From the NCBI RefSeq assembly GCF_000215975.1, contig NC_015682.1, positions 310,001-374,000 of the forward strand: a DNA stretch of 64,000 nt. Reading direction: 5' to 3'. Positions 32,242 to 64,000 of the stretch are shown here, in pieces. Source of the DNA: Thermodesulfobacterium geofontis OPF15. Its GTDB lineage: Bacteria > Desulfobacterota > Thermodesulfobacteria > Thermodesulfobacteriales > Thermodesulfobacteriaceae. Made by a program: the position numbers and the translations under genes. Numbering within the stretch: position 1 is the stretch's first letter; every line of letters starts with the position of its first letter. The notes beneath the pieces are model-generated. The model had not been told where the DNA came from. It saw only the letters and a program-made list of their open reading frames with translations, and did no database searches.

Positions 32242-33129
32242 ATGAACTCTCAAATTAAAGCGGTGATTCTTGCAGGTGGCTCAGGAACAAGGCTTTATCC
32301 GGTTACTCAGGTGGTAAATAAGCATCTTCTTCCTATCTACAATAAACCTATGATCTATTATCCCCTCTCTTTAGCTATGCTTTTAAAAATTAGAGACATA
32401 GCCTTAGTTGTTAATCCTCAGGATAGGGAGAGCTTTGAAAAGCTTTTTGGGGATGGTTCTCATTTAGGAATGAAGATTTCTTATATTATTCAAGAAAAGC
32501 CAAGGGGATTGGCTGAAGGATTAATCCTTGCTGAGAAGTTTTTAGATGGAAGCAGTGTTTTCTATCTTCTTGGGGATAATGTAGTTTTTGGGCATAATTT
32601 GCCTTTAGTTTTAGAAGAAGCTTTAAATGAGGTTTTAACAGAGGGTGGGGCTTTTTGCTTTGGCTATGCAGTGCCAGACCCTGAAAGGTTTGGTGTAGTT
32701 GAGTTTGATGCCTCTGGGAGAGTTCTTTCAATTGAAGAAAAGCCAAAAAAGCCAAAATCTAATTATGCGGTGATAGGAGTTTACTTCTTTGATGAGAAGG
32801 CACCTGAAGTGGCAAAAAGAGTTAAGCCCTCAAAAAGGGGAGAGTATGAGATAACTTCTGTGCTTGAAGAGTATTTAAAAGAGGGGAGTTTAAAGGTAAA
32901 GCTACTTGGAAGAGGTTTTGCCTGGTTTGATGCAGGAACTCATGATAGCTTTTTAGAAGCAGGGGAGTTTGTAGCAACGATTGAAAAGCGAACCGGACTT
33001 ATGATTGGGTGTATAGAAGAGATTGCTTACAGAAACGGCTGGATTGATAGAGAAGCCTTGATTAAACTTGCAAAGCCTTTAAGCAAAACTGAGTATGGGA
33101 AGTATTTGTTGAAATTGGTTGATGAGTAG
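32242..33129 (+). CDS. rfbA: Glucose-1-phosphate thymidylyltransferase
   Basis: 295 residues, normal length. [20 protein letters not shown] (G-rich loop), [21 protein letters not shown] (metal Asp) and [11 protein letters not shown] are intact. It makes dTDP-glucose, the first step to dTDP-rhamnose. The remaining steps, rfbC, B and D, are 700 bases on, after a hicBA pair. Its own 5' end is duplicated at 23554. Confidence 0.95.
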
Positions 33130-33226
33130 TCGCCAGGATTTTGGAATTACTTTTGAGGTTCCTTGAATTATGTTTAAATTTATGTATCTTATTACTTAGA
33201 AGCTAAATGAATATGCAAAAATGAAA

Positions 33227-33238
33227 TCCCTCGAGGGA
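33227..33238. other. 12-bp perfect palindrome upstream of hicB
   Basis: TCCCTCGAGGGA lies about 105 bases before the hicB start in an otherwise featureless AT-rich gap (33130-33344). It could be an operator for the HicB DNA-binding domain or part of a weak terminator. Neither role can be shown here. Confidence 0.35.
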
Positions 33239-33344
33239 ATTAAAAATTTTTCTAAAAAGCAACGAGATAATTTTTAAGAGAATTTAAAGCTAAAATCTCA
33301 TTGATAGTTTAGGTATGAGTTAAACAAAAGAAGGAGGTGATTTG

Positions 33345-33602
33345 ATGTTAATACGTACATTTACTGCTGTTATTTATAAAGAAGGTGATATTTACGTAGC
33401 AGAATGTCCTGAAGTTGGGACGGTAAGCCAGGGATACACAATTGAGGAAGCAATTGCTAATCTTAAAGAGGCAACTGAGCTGTATCTTGAAGAATGCTTA
33501 TCAAAAGAAGGGTCATCAACTGGTTTATATATTAAAGAGTTTGTACTAAGAAAGAGCTCGAAGCCTATTATTTCTACTTTTGACACTACAATTAATGTTT
33601 AA
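33345..33602 (+). CDS. hicB: HicB antitoxin
   Basis: 85 residues from ATG 33345, with a perfect AAGGAGGTGA site. The partial RNase H-like fold is visible (FTAVIYKEGDIYVAECPEVG, TVSQGYTIEEAIANLKEATE, LYLEEC). It should bind and silence HicA. It lies before hicA, the reverse of the classical order, with the hicA ATG inside its last codons. It sits within the dTDP-rhamnose genes. Confidence 0.88.
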   Translation: MLIRTFTAVIYKEGDIYVAECPEVGTVSQGYTIEEAIANLKEATELYLEECLSKEGSSTGLYIKEFVLRKSSKPIISTFDTTINV

Positions 33603-33822
33603 ACTAAAGAATATTTCAGGTGAAGAAGTTATAAGAAGATTAGAGAAATTAGGATTTTATAAAGTTCGTCAACGTGGCAGTCATGTAGTTTTAAAGAAGC
33701 AAACATCTGAAGGAGAAATTGTTTGTGTAGTTCCTTTGCACAAGGAGTTAGCAATAGGTACTTTACGTGGTATTTTAAGACAGGCCAAGCTTACAATTGA
33801 AGAATTTTTAAGTTGCGAATAA
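33595..33822 (+). CDS. hicA: HicA toxin (mRNA interferase)
   Basis: 75 residues from ATG 33595, overlapping the hicB stop. The double-stranded RNA-binding-like fold has EEVIRRLEKLGFYKVRQRGS-HVV, with the catalytic His in GSHVVL, and VPLHKELAIGTLRGILRQA. The active-site region is intact, so unlike the pairs at 10-16 kb this module looks functional. Confidence 0.88.
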   Translation: MFKLKNISGEEVIRRLEKLGFYKVRQRGSHVVLKKQTSEGEIVCVVPLHKELAIGTLRGILRQAKLTIEEFLSCE

Positions 33823-33841
33823 AATTTTTGATTAAAATCCT

Positions 33842-34399
33842 ATGCCCTTTGAATTTATAAGACTTGAGATTCCAGATGTAGTGCTTGTTAAGCCTAAGGT
33901 TTTTGAGGATGATAGAGGCTTTTTTATGGAAACATACAAGGCTTCTGATTTCGCAAAGGCTGGGATAGATTTTTCTTTTTGCCAGGATAATCATTCTAAA
34001 TCTAAAAAGGGTGTACTGAGAGGGTTACATTATCAGCTTGAGCCAAAGGCGCAAGGAAAGCTTATAAGGTGTATTAAAGGAAAGATTTGGGATGTTGCAG
34101 TTGACCTTCGCCTTGGCTCTCCTTGGTTTGGGAAATGGATTGCGGTAGAACTTTCCGAAGAAAATAAATGCATGCTGTGGATCCCAGCTGGCTTTGCCCA
34201 CGGGTTTGTTGCACTTGAAGATTGTGAAATAATCTATAAATGCACTGAGGAATATGCACCAGAATTAGACCGAGGGATAATCTGGAATGATCCAGATTTA
34301 AACATTCCTTGGCCTATTAAAGATCCGATACTTTCTTCTAAAGATGCAAAGCTACCGAGGCTAAAGGATGCTGAAATAAATTTTTATTACAGAGGTTAG
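33842..34399 (+). CDS. rfbC: dTDP-4-dehydrorhamnose 3,5-epimerase
   Basis: 185 residues, standard RmlC length. DDRGFFMETYKASDF, QDNHSKSKKGVLRGLHYQ (catalytic His), DVAVDLRLGSP and IPAGFAHGFVAL with the second catalytic pair are present. It epimerises C3 and C5 in dTDP-rhamnose synthesis. Only two bases separate it from rfbB. Confidence 0.95.
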   Translation: MPFEFIRLEIPDVVLVKPKVFEDDRGFFMETYKASDFAKAGIDFSFCQDNHSKSKKGVLRGLHYQLEPKAQGKLIRCIKGKIWDVAVDLRLGSPWFGKWIAVELSEENKCMLWIPAGFAHGFVALEDCEIIYKCTEEYAPELDRGIIWNDPDLNIPWPIKDPILSSKDAKLPRLKDAEINFYYRG

Positions 34400-34401
34400 A
34401 A

Positions 34402-35394
34402 ATGAAGCTACTTGTTACAGGAGGAGCAGGTTTCATTGGGAGTGAATTTGTTAGGCAAGCAGTTAGAAAGGGCTATCAGGTTGCGGTAGTTGACGCCCTT
34501 ACCTACGCAGGCGACCTTGAAAGACTAAAAGAGGTTAAATCTAAGATAAACTTTTATCAAGTAGATATTAAAGATTATGCTTGTCTTGAGGAGGTATTTA
34601 AGCAGGAAAGACCTGATGCAGTAGTCCATTTTGCTGCAGAAAGTCATGTAGATAGGAGCATCCTTGAACCAAGAGCCTTTTTACAAACAAACATTGAGGG
34701 GACTTTTAATATACTTGAGCTTGCCAAGGCTTTTAAAGTTAAAAGATTTGTTAATGTGTCAACCGATGAAGTTTATGGCGAGCTTGGGGATGCCGGAAAG
34801 TTTACGGAAGATTCTCCTCTTAAGCCCAATTCTCCTTATTCGGTCAGCAAAGCAAGTCAAGACATGCTTGGAAGGGCTTATTTTAGAACCTATGGTCTTC
34901 CTGTGATTACTGTTAGACCATCAAATAACTACGGGCCTTGGCAGTATCCGGAAAAGCTAATTCCTGTAGTTATAGCTAAGGCATTAAAAGATGAGCCTAT
35001 CCCAATATATGGCACAGGGCAAAACGTGAGGGAATGGTTATACGTTTCTGATTGTGCAGAGGCTATTTTAATGGTTTTGGAAAGGGGTATTCCAGGTGAG
35101 GTCTACAACATCGCAAGCGGGATTGAAAAGAGAAACATAGAGGTGGTAAAGGCAATACTTAAGCTCCTTGGAAAACCTGAAAGTTTGATCGAGTTCGTAA
35201 AGGATAGACCAGGACATGACTATAGATACGCGATGGATGCAAGTAAAATTAATAGGGAGCTTGGCTGGAAGGCAAAGACTGATTTTGAAACTGGACTGGC
35301 TCTAACAGTTAGGTGGTATTTGGAACACAGAGATTGGCTTGAAAGAAAGGTAGCTGAGCTTAAAGATTTCTGGAAGAAAGTTTACAAAAAATGA
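34402..35394 (+). CDS. rfbB: dTDP-glucose 4,6-dehydratase
   Basis: 330 residues. Rossmann loop TGGAGFIGS, catalytic YSVSK, STDEVYG (the Thr/Asp/Glu set of RmlB) and SNNYGPWQYPEKLIP are intact. It performs the second step to dTDP-rhamnose using bound NAD+. It overlaps rfbD by four bases. Confidence 0.95.
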   Translation: MKLLVTGGAGFIGSEFVRQAVRKGYQVAVVDALTYAGDLERLKEVKSKINFYQVDIKDYACLEEVFKQERPDAVVHFAAESHVDRSILEPRAFLQTNIEGTFNILELAKAFKVKRFVNVSTDEVYGELGDAGKFTEDSPLKPNSPYSVSKASQDMLGRAYFRTYGLPVITVRPSNNYGPWQYPEKLIPVVIAKALKDEPIPIYGTGQNVREWLYVSDCAEAILMVLERGIPGEVYNIASGIEKRNIEVVKAILKLLGKPESLIEFVKDRPGHDYRYAMDASKINRELGWKAKTDFETGLALTVRWYLEHRDWLERKVAELKDFWKKVYKK

Positions 35395-36224
35395 AATTTC
35401 TTATTACTGGGGCACGAGGACAGCTTGCAAGAGAATTTATATCCTATTTTCAAGAAAAAGGCTATGGTTTTGCTGCTTTCCCTAAGGACGAGCTTGATGT
35501 TTCCGACTTTGAGAAAGTTTATCAAACAATCAAAGAGATTAAACCAGATATTATTATTAATTGTTCAGCTTACAATCAGGTAGATTTAGCTGAAAAGGAA
35601 AAACATCTTGCCTATAAAGTAAATACTATCGGGGTTTATAACTTAGCCATCTCTGCAAGAGAAATTAAGGCAAAGCTTGTTCATTACTCAACGGATTATG
35701 TGTTTGACGGGACAAAGACAGGATTTTATACGGAGGAAGATCAGCCTAATCCCCTAAATGAATATGGAAAAAGTAAACTTTTTGGGGAATTCTTTATACA
35801 AGAAGTACTTGAAAATTATCTAATCTTTCGGGTAAGCTGGGTTTATGGAAAGGGTACTCAAAACTTTCTTTATAAGCTTGAAGAATGGGCTAAGAAACAG
35901 GAAGTATTAAAAATAGCGGTTGATGAGTTTTCGGTGCCAACATCTACCAGAACGATCGTTGAAGTAACCCTTAAGGCTCTTGATGAGGGATTGACCGGGC
36001 TTTCTCATCTAACAAATTCTGGCTATGCCTCTCGCTATGAGTGGGCAAAAGAGTATTTTAAGTTAAAAGGGATAAATAAGCTTATTTATCCTGCTTTGCA
36101 AGCTGATTTTAATCTTCCTGCTAAAAGACCAAAGTGGTCGGTGATGAGTAATGAAAAAATTAGCAAAGCCTTAGGGATCACTATAAGAGACTGGAGGGAG
36201 GAGTTAAAAAGTTTAATTAGATGA
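35391..36224 (+). CDS. rfbD: dTDP-4-dehydrorhamnose reductase
   Basis: 277 residues with TGARGQLAREF, NCSAYNQVDLAE, YSTDYVFDGTK and the active-site YGKSK. It reduces dTDP-4-keto-rhamnose with NAD(P)H to give dTDP-L-rhamnose. It is the last gene of the rhamnose set. The 100 bases after it show no terminator I can support before the convergent vapC. Confidence 0.93.
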   Translation: MKFLITGARGQLAREFISYFQEKGYGFAAFPKDELDVSDFEKVYQTIKEIKPDIIINCSAYNQVDLAEKEKHLAYKVNTIGVYNLAISAREIKAKLVHYSTDYVFDGTKTGFYTEEDQPNPLNEYGKSKLFGEFFIQEVLENYLIFRVSWVYGKGTQNFLYKLEEWAKKQEVLKIAVDEFSVPTSTRTIVEVTLKALDEGLTGLSHLTNSGYASRYEWAKEYFKLKGINKLIYPALQADFNLPAKRPKWSVMSNEKISKALGITIRDWREELKSLIR

Positions 36225-61544: not shown

Positions 61545-62333
61545 TTATTTGAGCTCTTTAATAAACTTATCCCAGCCAAGTTTTTCAATAATTGCCCCGA
61601 GTCTTTCTCCCTTTTGATTATATTTTTTATAAAGTTCTAAAATTTTATAAAAAAGTTTAGGTATTTCTTCTGCTTGAAAATAACCCAAAAAGGTTGCGAG
61701 CCGAGGATGGCGACCAAGCTTACCTCCCAAGTAAACTTTATATCCTTTAAACTCCTCATTTAAAGCTGATTCTGGGCACACCTTAATGCAATGACCACAG
61801 CCAACGCAAAGCTCCTCTTTTATCATCGGACCAAACTCGGTAAGCTCAATAGCACCTTCTTCACAGGCTTCAACGCAGGACCCACAAAAACTACAAGCCT
61901 TAGGATTGACGGAAATTTTTACCACCCCATGGAGAGCAAAATCGCAGATATGGATTTGGGAACAAGCGTTTGGACATTCAGAAAGGCCAACCTTAAACTT
62001 ATGATGAGCCTTCAACTTTGGTCCAACCTTAGAGATCAAAAATTGGGTAAGCTTTTCTTCTTCTAAAATCTTTTCTAAGGAAGACAAAAGATGGCTTGAA
62101 TCTGTTAGAGCGTTAGGGCAGGAATCAAAGCCAAAACACCCAGATACTTCATAGCCCTTTTCTGCTTCAGACATTTTACTGAGCAGAGCTTTCTTTGCCT
62201 CTAAAAGGTCTTCAAGGGTAACCCTGTTCTTCCCCCTTTCCTGAAGATACTTTTCTACCTCCCTTTTTACCTTTTTTCTGACAAAGAAAGGAACCTTCTT
62301 AAGGTAGGCTTCGGCATCAGGCGTCCACTCCAT
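61545..62333 (-). CDS. PCP-reductase-domain + siroheme/Fe-S + ferredoxin fusion protein
   Basis: 262 residues in three parts. The N-terminal ~50 residues (WTPDAEAYLKKVPFFVRKKV) match the small domain also found at the end of protochlorophyllide reductase BchB. Next is a sulfite/nitrite reductase Fe-S module with GCFGFDSC (C-x5-C) and ECPNAC (C-x3-C). Then two 4Fe-4S ferredoxin motifs (CSFCGSCVEAC, CVGCGHCIKVC). It may reduce or bind siroheme for a small anion such as sulfite or nitrite, but it lacks a full reductase length. The base composition is richer in G+C than nearby genes. Confidence 0.8.
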   Translation of the reverse strand: MEWTPDAEAYLKKVPFFVRKKVKREVEKYLQERGKNRVTLEDLLEAKKALLSKMSEAEKGYEVSGCFGFDSCPNALTDSSHLLSSLEKILEEEKLTQFLISKVGPKLKAHHKFKVGLSECPNACSQIHICDFALHGVVKISVNPKACSFCGSCVEACEEGAIELTEFGPMIKEELCVGCGHCIKVCPESALNEEFKGYKVYLGGKLGRHPRLATFLGYFQAEEIPKLFYKILELYKKYNQKGERLGAIIEKLGWDKFIKELK

Positions 62334-63070
62334 TAAGCTTCCTCCGTCCTAAGGATTTCACCCTTAACTCCTATGGTGTGAACTTTAAATTTAAAATCTT
62401 TATTGGCAAGCCTCCGCGCTTGGTCAAGAATAAAAAGAAGCCCTCGACAGCAGGGAACCTCCATTATGGCAAGCTCAAGCGACCTCAGAGGCACTTTGCT
62501 AAAGATTTCCGCGAATTTTTCGATGTAAAGGTCTGCTGGGTCAAACTTTGGACAACCTATCATGATCTTTTTCCCGGGAAGAAGCTTGGTATGAAGCTCA
62601 GGATAGGCAACGGCTACGCAGTCGGCACAGACTAAAAGCCGTGCATCCCTCAAGAAGGGGGCACTGCTTGGGATAAGCCTTATCTGGACCGGCCAATGGG
62701 TAAGCGACGATGCTATATCATGAGGATAAGGAGCAGGCTTTTCCTCTGTTTCAAGGTTTCTTACCTGGGTTGATGGACAACCGCAAGCAAGAGTAGGATG
62801 AAATGTTTCCTCGCTTTTCTTCATGCGATGCAGATGGTCTTCCACAGCCTCTTCATCAAAGGGCTCAGCTTCCTTTTCTACGATGCGAAGGACACCGGTT
62901 GGACACTCCCCAATGCAAGCCCCTAAACCATCGCAAAGGACTTCGCTAACAAGCCTTGCCTTACCATCTATGATGGCTATCGCACCTTCTTGACAGGCAA
63001 GTACGCATTTGCCGCAGCCGTTACAAAGCTCTTCATCGATCTCGATGATTTTCCTTAGAACCTTCGGCAT
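62333..63070 (-). CDS. Ferredoxin-domain protein with cysteine-rich C-terminal part
   Basis: 245 residues. Ferredoxin cluster 1 is CNGCGKCVLAC; the second site is CDGLGACIGEC, lacking one of the usual cysteines, as in related proteins of this type. The rest has further Cys (ACGCPST, CADCVAVAYP, IGCPKFD, EVPCCRGL). It is probably an electron carrier or assembly partner of the siroheme protein, with which it overlaps by one base (TAATG). The physiological pathway is unknown. Confidence 0.75.
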   Translation of the reverse strand: MPKVLRKIIEIDEELCNGCGKCVLACQEGAIAIIDGKARLVSEVLCDGLGACIGECPTGVLRIVEKEAEPFDEEAVEDHLHRMKKSEETFHPTLACGCPSTQVRNLETEEKPAPYPHDIASSLTHWPVQIRLIPSSAPFLRDARLLVCADCVAVAYPELHTKLLPGKKIMIGCPKFDPADLYIEKFAEIFSKVPLRSLELAIMEVPCCRGLLFILDQARRLANKDFKFKVHTIGVKGEILRTEEA

Positions 63071-63073
63071 GTT

Positions 63074-63613
63074 TTACTCCTCCTCTTTTAAGGTTAAAGC
63101 TTCAAATAATTCCTTTGGGTTTAGCCCTTCTTTAAGCTCCTTAAGCTTAAGCCTTATGTCATCAAACACAGGCTCTGGCAGACGAACCTTCTCCGCAACT
63201 TCCTTTGAATCATCCTTTGGCAGATAATAAAAATAGAGAAGTAAAAGTTTTAAGCCTGGGGACTTCCCCACATCTTTAGCTTTTGCTTCCATTTCTATTA
63301 CTAAACTTGAGATTTCTTTAAAAAGCTCTTTGGGAAGCCTTTTTTCAACCTCAACTGCTATGCGCTCTTTAAGGAGGTTACTCCTTTCTCTCAAAACCTC
63401 CTTTGGCAGTTCACCAAAGCAAAGCTCAGCGTATTGGCAATAGAGGGCGCACCCAAAATCCATCCTTGGATTGACAAGCACTCGCTTACAGCTTGGACAT
63501 TTCCTTGAGGTATCATCCTTGAAGAACTCAACAAGCGCCCCGCAATGGGGACATTTAACCTCAAAGATGGCATCTTCCTTCCAATAATGTGTATCTTGCC
63601 CTGGACATCTCAT
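63074..63613 (-). CDS. Zinc-ribbon protein of unknown function
   Basis: 179 residues. An N-terminal double zinc ribbon (KCPHCGAL...KCPSCKRVLV) and a further cysteine set (GCALYCQYAELC) are followed by helical segments (KEVLRERSNLL, FKEISSLVIEME). I do not recognise the family. Three bases separate it from the ferredoxin gene, so it is the leading gene of this small operon and may act as a regulator or scaffold. Confidence 0.65.
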   Translation of the reverse strand: MRCPGQDTHYWKEDAIFEVKCPHCGALVEFFKDDTSRKCPSCKRVLVNPRMDFGCALYCQYAELCFGELPKEVLRERSNLLKERIAVEVEKRLPKELFKEISSLVIEMEAKAKDVGKSPGLKLLLLYFYYLPKDDSKEVAEKVRLPEPVFDDIRLKLKELKEGLNPKELFEALTLKEEE

Positions 63614-63653: not shown

Positions 63654-64000
63654 TTAGTTGTTGTGGTGTAATAAAAAATAGGCTTCAAGTTCACAGATAA
63701 GTTTATGATATTGCTCATGAGAATCACCACCTATTTGTTCTTGTTCGTAGCTTTCAAAGCTTTTCTCTAATTCCATATCATCCGACTTATTTAATATCTG
63801 CTTTGCCATTTGAAAAAGTACATTATCTTCCTTCCAAATATGCTGGCTTAATAAAGTGATATATTCCCGAGCAGATGACACAAAATTTTGTCTGGCTTTA
63901 GCTTCTAAAAAATCACTAAGGGCTTGACGCATCTGTTCTTGCAATGTTCGTCCTTTTTCATGTTCATTTAACATTACGCCAATAGGACCACCTTCACGGG
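63654..64000 (-). CDS. Hemerythrin-like (HHE) protein, partial at window end
   Basis: The frame is open beyond position 64000 on the minus strand; a GGPIGVMLNEHEKGR segment precedes the internal Met at 63974. The visible 116 residues include the His-rich spots NEHE, LLSQHIWKEDNVLF and DSHEQYHKLICE, the pattern of hemerythrin HHE di-iron sites. It should bind O2 or NO, or serve iron sensing, and could protect the Fe-S proteins downstream. Confidence 0.7.
   Translation of the reverse strand, partial: REGGPIGVMLNEHEKGRTLQEQMRQALSDFLEAKARQNFVSSAREYITLLSQHIWKEDNVLFQMAKQILNKSDDMELEKSFESYEQEQIGGDSHEQYHKLICELEAYFLLHHNN

Follow-up and report, generated by a model that had tools for sequence, protein, structure and literature searches.

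A laterally acquired PCP_red–NIR_SIR gene trio in Thermodesulfobacterium geofontis OPF15, a likely HcpR-type nitrogen-oxide stress module without Hcp

The window analysed was a 64,000-nucleotide stretch (bases 310001-374000) of the closed 1,634,377-base genome of Thermodesulfobacterium geofontis OPF15. Three linked ORFs, as claimed in a sequence-only reading of the window, were found on the minus strand at its right edge, and an 18 kb region spanning that edge (L009) was analysed too. The first of this trio, which we have designated PNS (61545..62333), encoded a protein of 262 aa. The FrdX-like gene (62333..63070; L009:2334-3071) encoded 245 aa with an N-terminal ferredoxin and a C-terminal domain containing invariant cysteines, and ZnR (63074..63613) encoded a 179 aa zinc-ribbon protein. 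The zinc-ribbon protein and hemerythrin previously placed upstream were both present; the hemerythrin (HHE) gene (PF01814, E = 3e-22; 186 aa, minus strand) had its C-terminal part in the window (63654..64000) and ran past it (L009:3655-4215). It was preceded, outside the window, by a minus-strand gene for an octaheme HAO-family cytochrome c of 409 aa (L009:4389-5618). Read from upstream, the order was octaheme cytochrome c, hemerythrin, ZnR, FrdX-like and PNS, with gaps of 173 bp between cytochrome and hemerythrin, 40 bp between hemerythrin and ZnR and 3 bp between ZnR and FrdX, and an overlap of 1 base between FrdX and PNS. Residue numbers given below are true protein residue numbers. Elsewhere in L009, a TonB-type receptor gene was preceded by a cobalamin riboswitch (L009:11247-11522; Rfam RF00174, 48 bits), which accounted for a local GC peak. 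Approximately 8-9 kb past the hemerythrin gene, ORF fragments resembling a transposase and an integrase lay beside tRNA-Thr (L009:12136-13257) and are possibly the remains of a mobile element.

Analysis of PNS revealed a PCP_red domain (PF08369, E = 2e-19; residues 3-47), a NIR_SIR domain (E = 4e-25; residues 62-261) and two inserted [4Fe-4S] ferredoxin (Fer4) motifs within residues 146-191 (Pfam), which agreed with the suggested fusion of a BchB-type domain to a sulfite-reductase-like cluster and two ferredoxin clusters. The NIR_SIR cluster motif comprised C66-x5-C72 and C120-x3-C124, and the ferredoxin motifs C147/150/153/157 and C176/179/182/186; all 12 cluster cysteines (four NIR_SIR and eight ferredoxin) were invariant in 40/40 sequences. 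H110 (39/40), a GG-x-x-GR motif (GGKLGR), a GER motif and R244 were also conserved. The PCP_red part matched BchB chains and the stand-alone structures 2kru and 2l09, which share this domain. Unlike BchB, a component of light-independent protochlorophyllide reductase, PNS had no nitrogenase-like catalytic domain among its Pfam matches, and it scored 54 vs 490 bits for the BchB-family TIGR01278. The nearest solved structures to PNS (AlphaFold2 model, pLDDT 93.5) were, with high confidence, the sulfite reductases Fsr and Dsr; the best match was to MjFsr, with PNS residues 59-262 fitting MjFsr 418-612 (Z 19.5, 2.1 A over 190 residues).

The four sulfite ligands of Fsr (R355, R423, K460 and K462) have been described as perfectly conserved across sulfite reductases; one protomer binds the siroheme and the other binds the cluster (PMC10229431). 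The region bearing Fsr R355 and R388 was absent from PNS, no conserved Arg was found at the R423 position (residues 56-65; placement uncertain by up to 3 residues) and the K460 position was mostly Glu/Gln in the 40 sequences (E16/Q10/K9/R3). The K462 position, basic in 39/40 (R30/K9), was the sole one of the four to be kept basic. PNS showed no match to the PF03460 (NIR_SIR_ferr) half-domain and did not reach the cut-offs for AsrC (TIGR02912; 87 vs 324 bits) or DsrB (66 vs 341 bits). As three of the four residues that bind sulfite are missing along with the ferredoxin-like half, PNS is probably not a sulfite reductase. The earlier remark that it is not long enough for a full reductase holds in effect, the NIR_SIR_ferr half being missing, but length alone is no argument because group I Dsr-like proteins are only ~220 aa (one, in L058, has both domains in 222 aa). 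Siroheme binding by PNS is possible. In the Dsr-LP classification scheme (PMC3448663) PNS is like a group III protein that has lost most of its substrate residues. Group III Dsr-LP, AsrC and the C-terminal half of Fsr share with it the NIR_SIR Cx5C/Cx3C motif, two inserted [4Fe-4S] sites and the same fold over 190 residues, whereas PNS has PCP_red in place of the NIR_SIR_ferr half, one basic sulfite residue of four, and linkage to hcp. PNS represents a sulfite-reductase core that has lost the sulfite site and kept every cluster ligand.

The FrdX-like protein contained ferredoxin motifs at C16/19/22/26 and C46-x5-C52-x3-C56. The second (residues 46-56) was without its middle cysteine (CDGLGAC) in 34/34 sequences, which suggests an open, site-differentiated cluster or a [3Fe-4S] cluster at this site. 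Cys 151, 173, 207 and 208 of the C-terminal domain were invariant in the same 34 sequences, and a fold search returned convincing matches for the ferredoxin part only. The name FrdX was assigned from the domains present, the order of the genes and the promoter site: the gene adjoined or shared a cluster with hcp in L045, L036, L126, L134, L136, L149 and L155, and HcpR sites were present in relatives. FrdX guards Clostridioides difficile against NO, although its exact function was called unclear in the same 2026 paper (PMC12915319). ZnR had no significant match among solved structures; its relatives outside the order were longer, with an HD domain (PF01966).

The octaheme cytochrome c encoded eight CxxCH motifs and matched the solved HAO structures 6h5l (E = 7e-26, the nearest) and 1fgj (E = 3e-23). 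The cross-linking Tyr467 of NeHAO aligned with a His in this protein; a missing tyrosine ligand is a mark of reducing HAO types (PMC3701875), and such cytochromes have been put forward as acting on nitrite in relatives without NrfA (PMC5276818). A promoter-like match (11/12, a match to the consensus only) preceded the gene. HAO was common in the order; homologues were found in 24/41 relatives, mostly not linked to PNS. HAO was beside the module also in L058 (G025) and L143, and among the 41 relatives it was beside PNS only in G025; HAO and hemerythrin together adjoining the trio were seen only in this genome.

The trio had been noted to differ in base composition from its AT-rich flanks. Its GC contents of 0.48, 0.42 and 0.40 were accompanied by GC3 values of 0.45, 0.41 and 0.37, the three highest among the 51 window genes (mean 0.215, sd 0.076). 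High expression was ruled out as the cause because native dsrAB, presumed to be highly expressed, had a GC3 of only 0.17-0.21; composition like that of highly expressed native genes, which had been named as evidence against transfer, was not found. The relatives compared were Caldimicrobium and Thermodesulfobacteriaceae MAGs. ZnR, FrdX and PNS were 92, 91 and 87% identical to those of Caldimicrobium sp. EvPrim.Bin5 (G014; L042/L010), a MAG of another genus. GyrA was 66% identical to that of G014 vs 84% to that of the same-genus G008; PNS of G008 was 72% identical, so that the relationship seen with GyrA was reversed. The PNS tree paired this gene with that of G014 (SH-aLRT 99). A nucleotide alignment showed a single 2,063-bp match to G014 with 87.7% identity, beginning at the ZnR start codon, and the rest of the 18 kb had no further match to that G014 contig. 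Import of the trio from a related genus by lateral transfer, as first suggested from composition, is well supported by the identities, the tree and GC3. The trio is under purifying selection in this genome, with a pairwise dN/dS vs G014 of 0.10-0.13, a value in which both lineages are pooled. The hemerythrin and octaheme HAO-like genes (L009:3655-5618) lay outside the G014 nucleotide match and had GC3 values nearer the genome's (0.27-0.30); this suggests that the trio was inserted behind them. Raised GC3 values (0.30-0.34) also marked four sugar-nucleotide genes of the dTDP-rhamnose type at 32242-36224, which form a second composition island in the window.

PNS homologues were present in 31/41 relatives and, in a survey that covered this phylum, in 79/197 genomes drawn evenly from it (alignment query, E<=1e-25). 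Matches better than ~1e-76 mostly covered positions 1-260 and thus PCP_red as well; of the weaker matches, many covered the core only. The spread of full-length, PCP_red-bearing matches over the phylum indicates that the PCP_red–NIR_SIR fusion is old in it. A gene-neighbourhood search revealed the fusion, the ferredoxin and the zinc ribbon to recur together in relatives, and not the scattering that had been named as an argument against a linked set. At 51 PCP_red-type loci, many of which were cut by contig ends, ZnR was found within 5 kb at 32, FrdX at 30, Hcp at 16 and an HcpR-like Crp/Fnr gene at 12. Where at least 4.5 kb was available on both sides, one or more of FrdX, ZnR and Hcp lay inside that distance at 20/27 PCP_red loci. 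The neighbouring Hcp proteins scored above the NCBIfam hydroxylamine reductase cut-offs. Gene order was ZnR-FrdX-PNS in family f1, FrdX-PNS-ZnR in family f3 and PNS-Hcp-ZnR-FrdX in L036, L126, L134, L136 and L149. In G008 an HcpR-like gene was divergent from Hcp-FrdX-PNS, and a divergent HcpR-like gene was also found at the module in L125 and L132. The G025 locus (L058:8337-12739) encoded FrdX-PNS-(222-aa NIR_SIR_ferr+NIR_SIR)-octaheme HAO-ZnR, all co-directional, and L143 had a co-directional HAO. The 222-aa assimilatory-type protein of G025, which does match NIR_SIR_ferr, is a possible PNS partner that would supply the missing half.

The published delta-proteobacterial HcpR consensus is wyTTGACnnnnGTCAArw (PMC1274295). 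At 36/65 loci, compared to ~0.7 expected, TTGA-N6-TCAA was found in the 200 bp preceding the first gene of the module, mostly at -40 to -110, and the matching loci spanned many families. The binomial value of 1e-53 overstates independence because the loci are related. CRP-like and HcpR2 motifs showed no comparable enrichment at module loci. With hcp and HcpR-like neighbours and HcpR sites in relatives, it is well supported that across the phylum the module belongs to HcpR-type nitrogen-oxide defence, which favours the NO-handling role among those first proposed. This genome had no HcpR site upstream of the trio, no Crp/Fnr HTH above the cut-off and no Hcp at 1e-60 using a true Hcp query, so that partners and regulation here are non-canonical. 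The sole PF03063 match in the genome, a protein of 735 aa, was rejected as Hcp; its locus, which also has a formyl-H4F synthetase gene and genes of the FolD type, identified it as a CO dehydrogenase.

HcpR, hcp and frdX are published members of the HcpR system (PMC545781, PMC1274295), and the same genes were found beside PNS in many genomes, together with the FNR-like palindrome and a divergent Crp/Fnr gene; hcp, HcpR and the site are, however, missing in T. geofontis. The Desulfovibrio 206515-206516 operon, a 'putative sulfite/nitrite reductase, polyferredoxin' listed in the predicted HcpR regulon in 2004 (PMC545781), is alike in description, on which the comparison rests, in that an FeS protein resembling sulfite/nitrite reductases is predicted to be controlled by HcpR. 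The reverse-HURM system of Nautilia (octaheme HaoA, Hcp and NAMH_1302, the last compared by description) also combines an octaheme HAO without the cross-linking Tyr with a cytoplasmic Fe-S protein, but it includes Hcp. The proposal that the set was uncharacterised was therefore too broad with regard to FrdX, Hcp and the Desulfovibrio operon, which were already published. It stands for the PCP_red–NIR_SIR fusion, the ZnR/HD partner and the Hcp-free version, none of which was found in the literature searched; nor were PCP_red beside hcp, or PNS and ZnR-HD named as core HcpR-regulon members.

We consider it reasonably likely that the trio is a laterally acquired HcpR-type nitrogen-oxide stress module that works without Hcp and serves tolerance of nitrite, NO or hydroxylamine. 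This reading draws on computed domains, invariant cysteines, missing sulfite residues, hcp linkage, promoter sites in relatives, transfer and purifying selection. In the phylum the module would consist of PNS, Hcp, ZnR-HD and FrdX; Hcp is lacking from the copy here. In the cytoplasm, FrdX may relay electrons together with the two ferredoxin clusters of PNS, the presumed end point being the cluster of the half-size Dsr-like domain; the direction of flow and the substrate are inferred. In most genomes the relay would work next to Hcp, which converts NO to N2O and hydroxylamine to ammonia. Here, from gene position, we infer an Hcp-free, HAO-linked use. The periplasmic cytochrome, an octaheme protein of the HAO type, is probably a nitrite/hydroxylamine reductase, and the relay may act downstream of both it and the di-iron hemerythrin. 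The genes of these two would be co-transcribed with the trio, giving tolerance of nitrite, NO and hydroxylamine without Hcp.

A tentative alternative is that PNS is itself a catalytic siroheme enzyme for nitrite, NO or hydroxylamine, a homodimer with siroheme between two NIR_SIR domains and PCP_red as a lid. The BchB PCP_red domain belongs to a tetrapyrrole enzyme, the genome's dsrAB implies a siroheme supply, and the invariance of the whole Cx5C...Cx3C motif in the 40 sequences, the basic K462 equivalent and the retained GGKLGR and GER motifs are all in keeping with catalysis. Fsr-type enzymes reduce nitrite (PMC13381448). However, PNS lacks the half-domain that carries R355 and R388 in Fsr, a conserved Arg is missing at the R423 position and K460 is mostly replaced. 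PCP_red has also been lost several times in the family (copies without it were scattered in the tree, forcing at least three changes) and is therefore dispensable in some members. A more specific form of this idea, which we regard as speculative, is that PNS represents a new nitrogen-oxide reductase class or an NO-responsive enzyme in which PCP_red would replace the ferredoxin-like half as a tetrapyrrole lid, working with FrdX and, in genomes like this one, capable of acting in the absence of Hcp.

It is unlikely that PNS and FrdX are mere electron donors to Hcp, in place of the enteric Hcr reductase and with no reaction of their own. Adjacency to hcp, shared HcpR sites and three cluster sites suited to an electron wire favour such a role, and a functional link of Hcp with Hcr/FrdX has been suggested (PMC1274295). 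Against it, the near-complete genomes G000, G002, G007 and G031 keep PNS without Hcp, and the trio here is still under purifying selection with Hcp absent. That the trio is a decaying passenger of transfer, functionless because it arrived without hcp, HcpR and the promoter site, is improbable: the lack of all three here and an alignable segment that begins at the ZnR start codon would fit, but the three ORFs are intact, their dN/dS vs G014, with both lineages pooled, is low, and they sit 40 bp behind an intact hemerythrin gene. A sulfite (or thiosulfate) reductase or sulfite-detoxification module, also among the original suggestions, is barely credible, since the likeness to Fsr and Dsr as nearest structures is outweighed by the loss of the sulfite site with a whole half-domain, scores under the AsrC and DsrB cut-offs, and linkage to hcp and HcpR sites.

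As an HcpR-type nitrogen-oxide stress module, the set adds two conserved proteins, PNS and the zinc-ribbon/HD protein, to the Hcp/FrdX system across one phylum and indicates an Hcp-free version. It touches on two questions in strict anaerobes without Hcr, the electron source of Hcp and the role of FrdX. In Thermodesulfobacteria without NrfA, the step from nitrite to ammonium is missing (PMC5276818), and the trio/HAO locus offers candidates for it.

PNS without PCP_red was also found beside UvrA in nine genomes of two families. The order was UvrA-FrdX-PNS in L033 (3043-9702), L034 (9166-15825), L035 (2386-9049) and L061 (9389-16043), and PNS-UvrA in L037 (9703-13063), L038 (9337-15170), L039 (9573-12931), L040 (2306-8179) and L041 (2084-4190). 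The UvrA was of double length (1749 aa) in one family and of 910-911 aa in the other, and 4/9 of these genomes also carried FrdX with an HcpR-type site. These loci suggest an association of excision repair with a Dsr-like iron-sulfur protein, one that has no obvious explanation.
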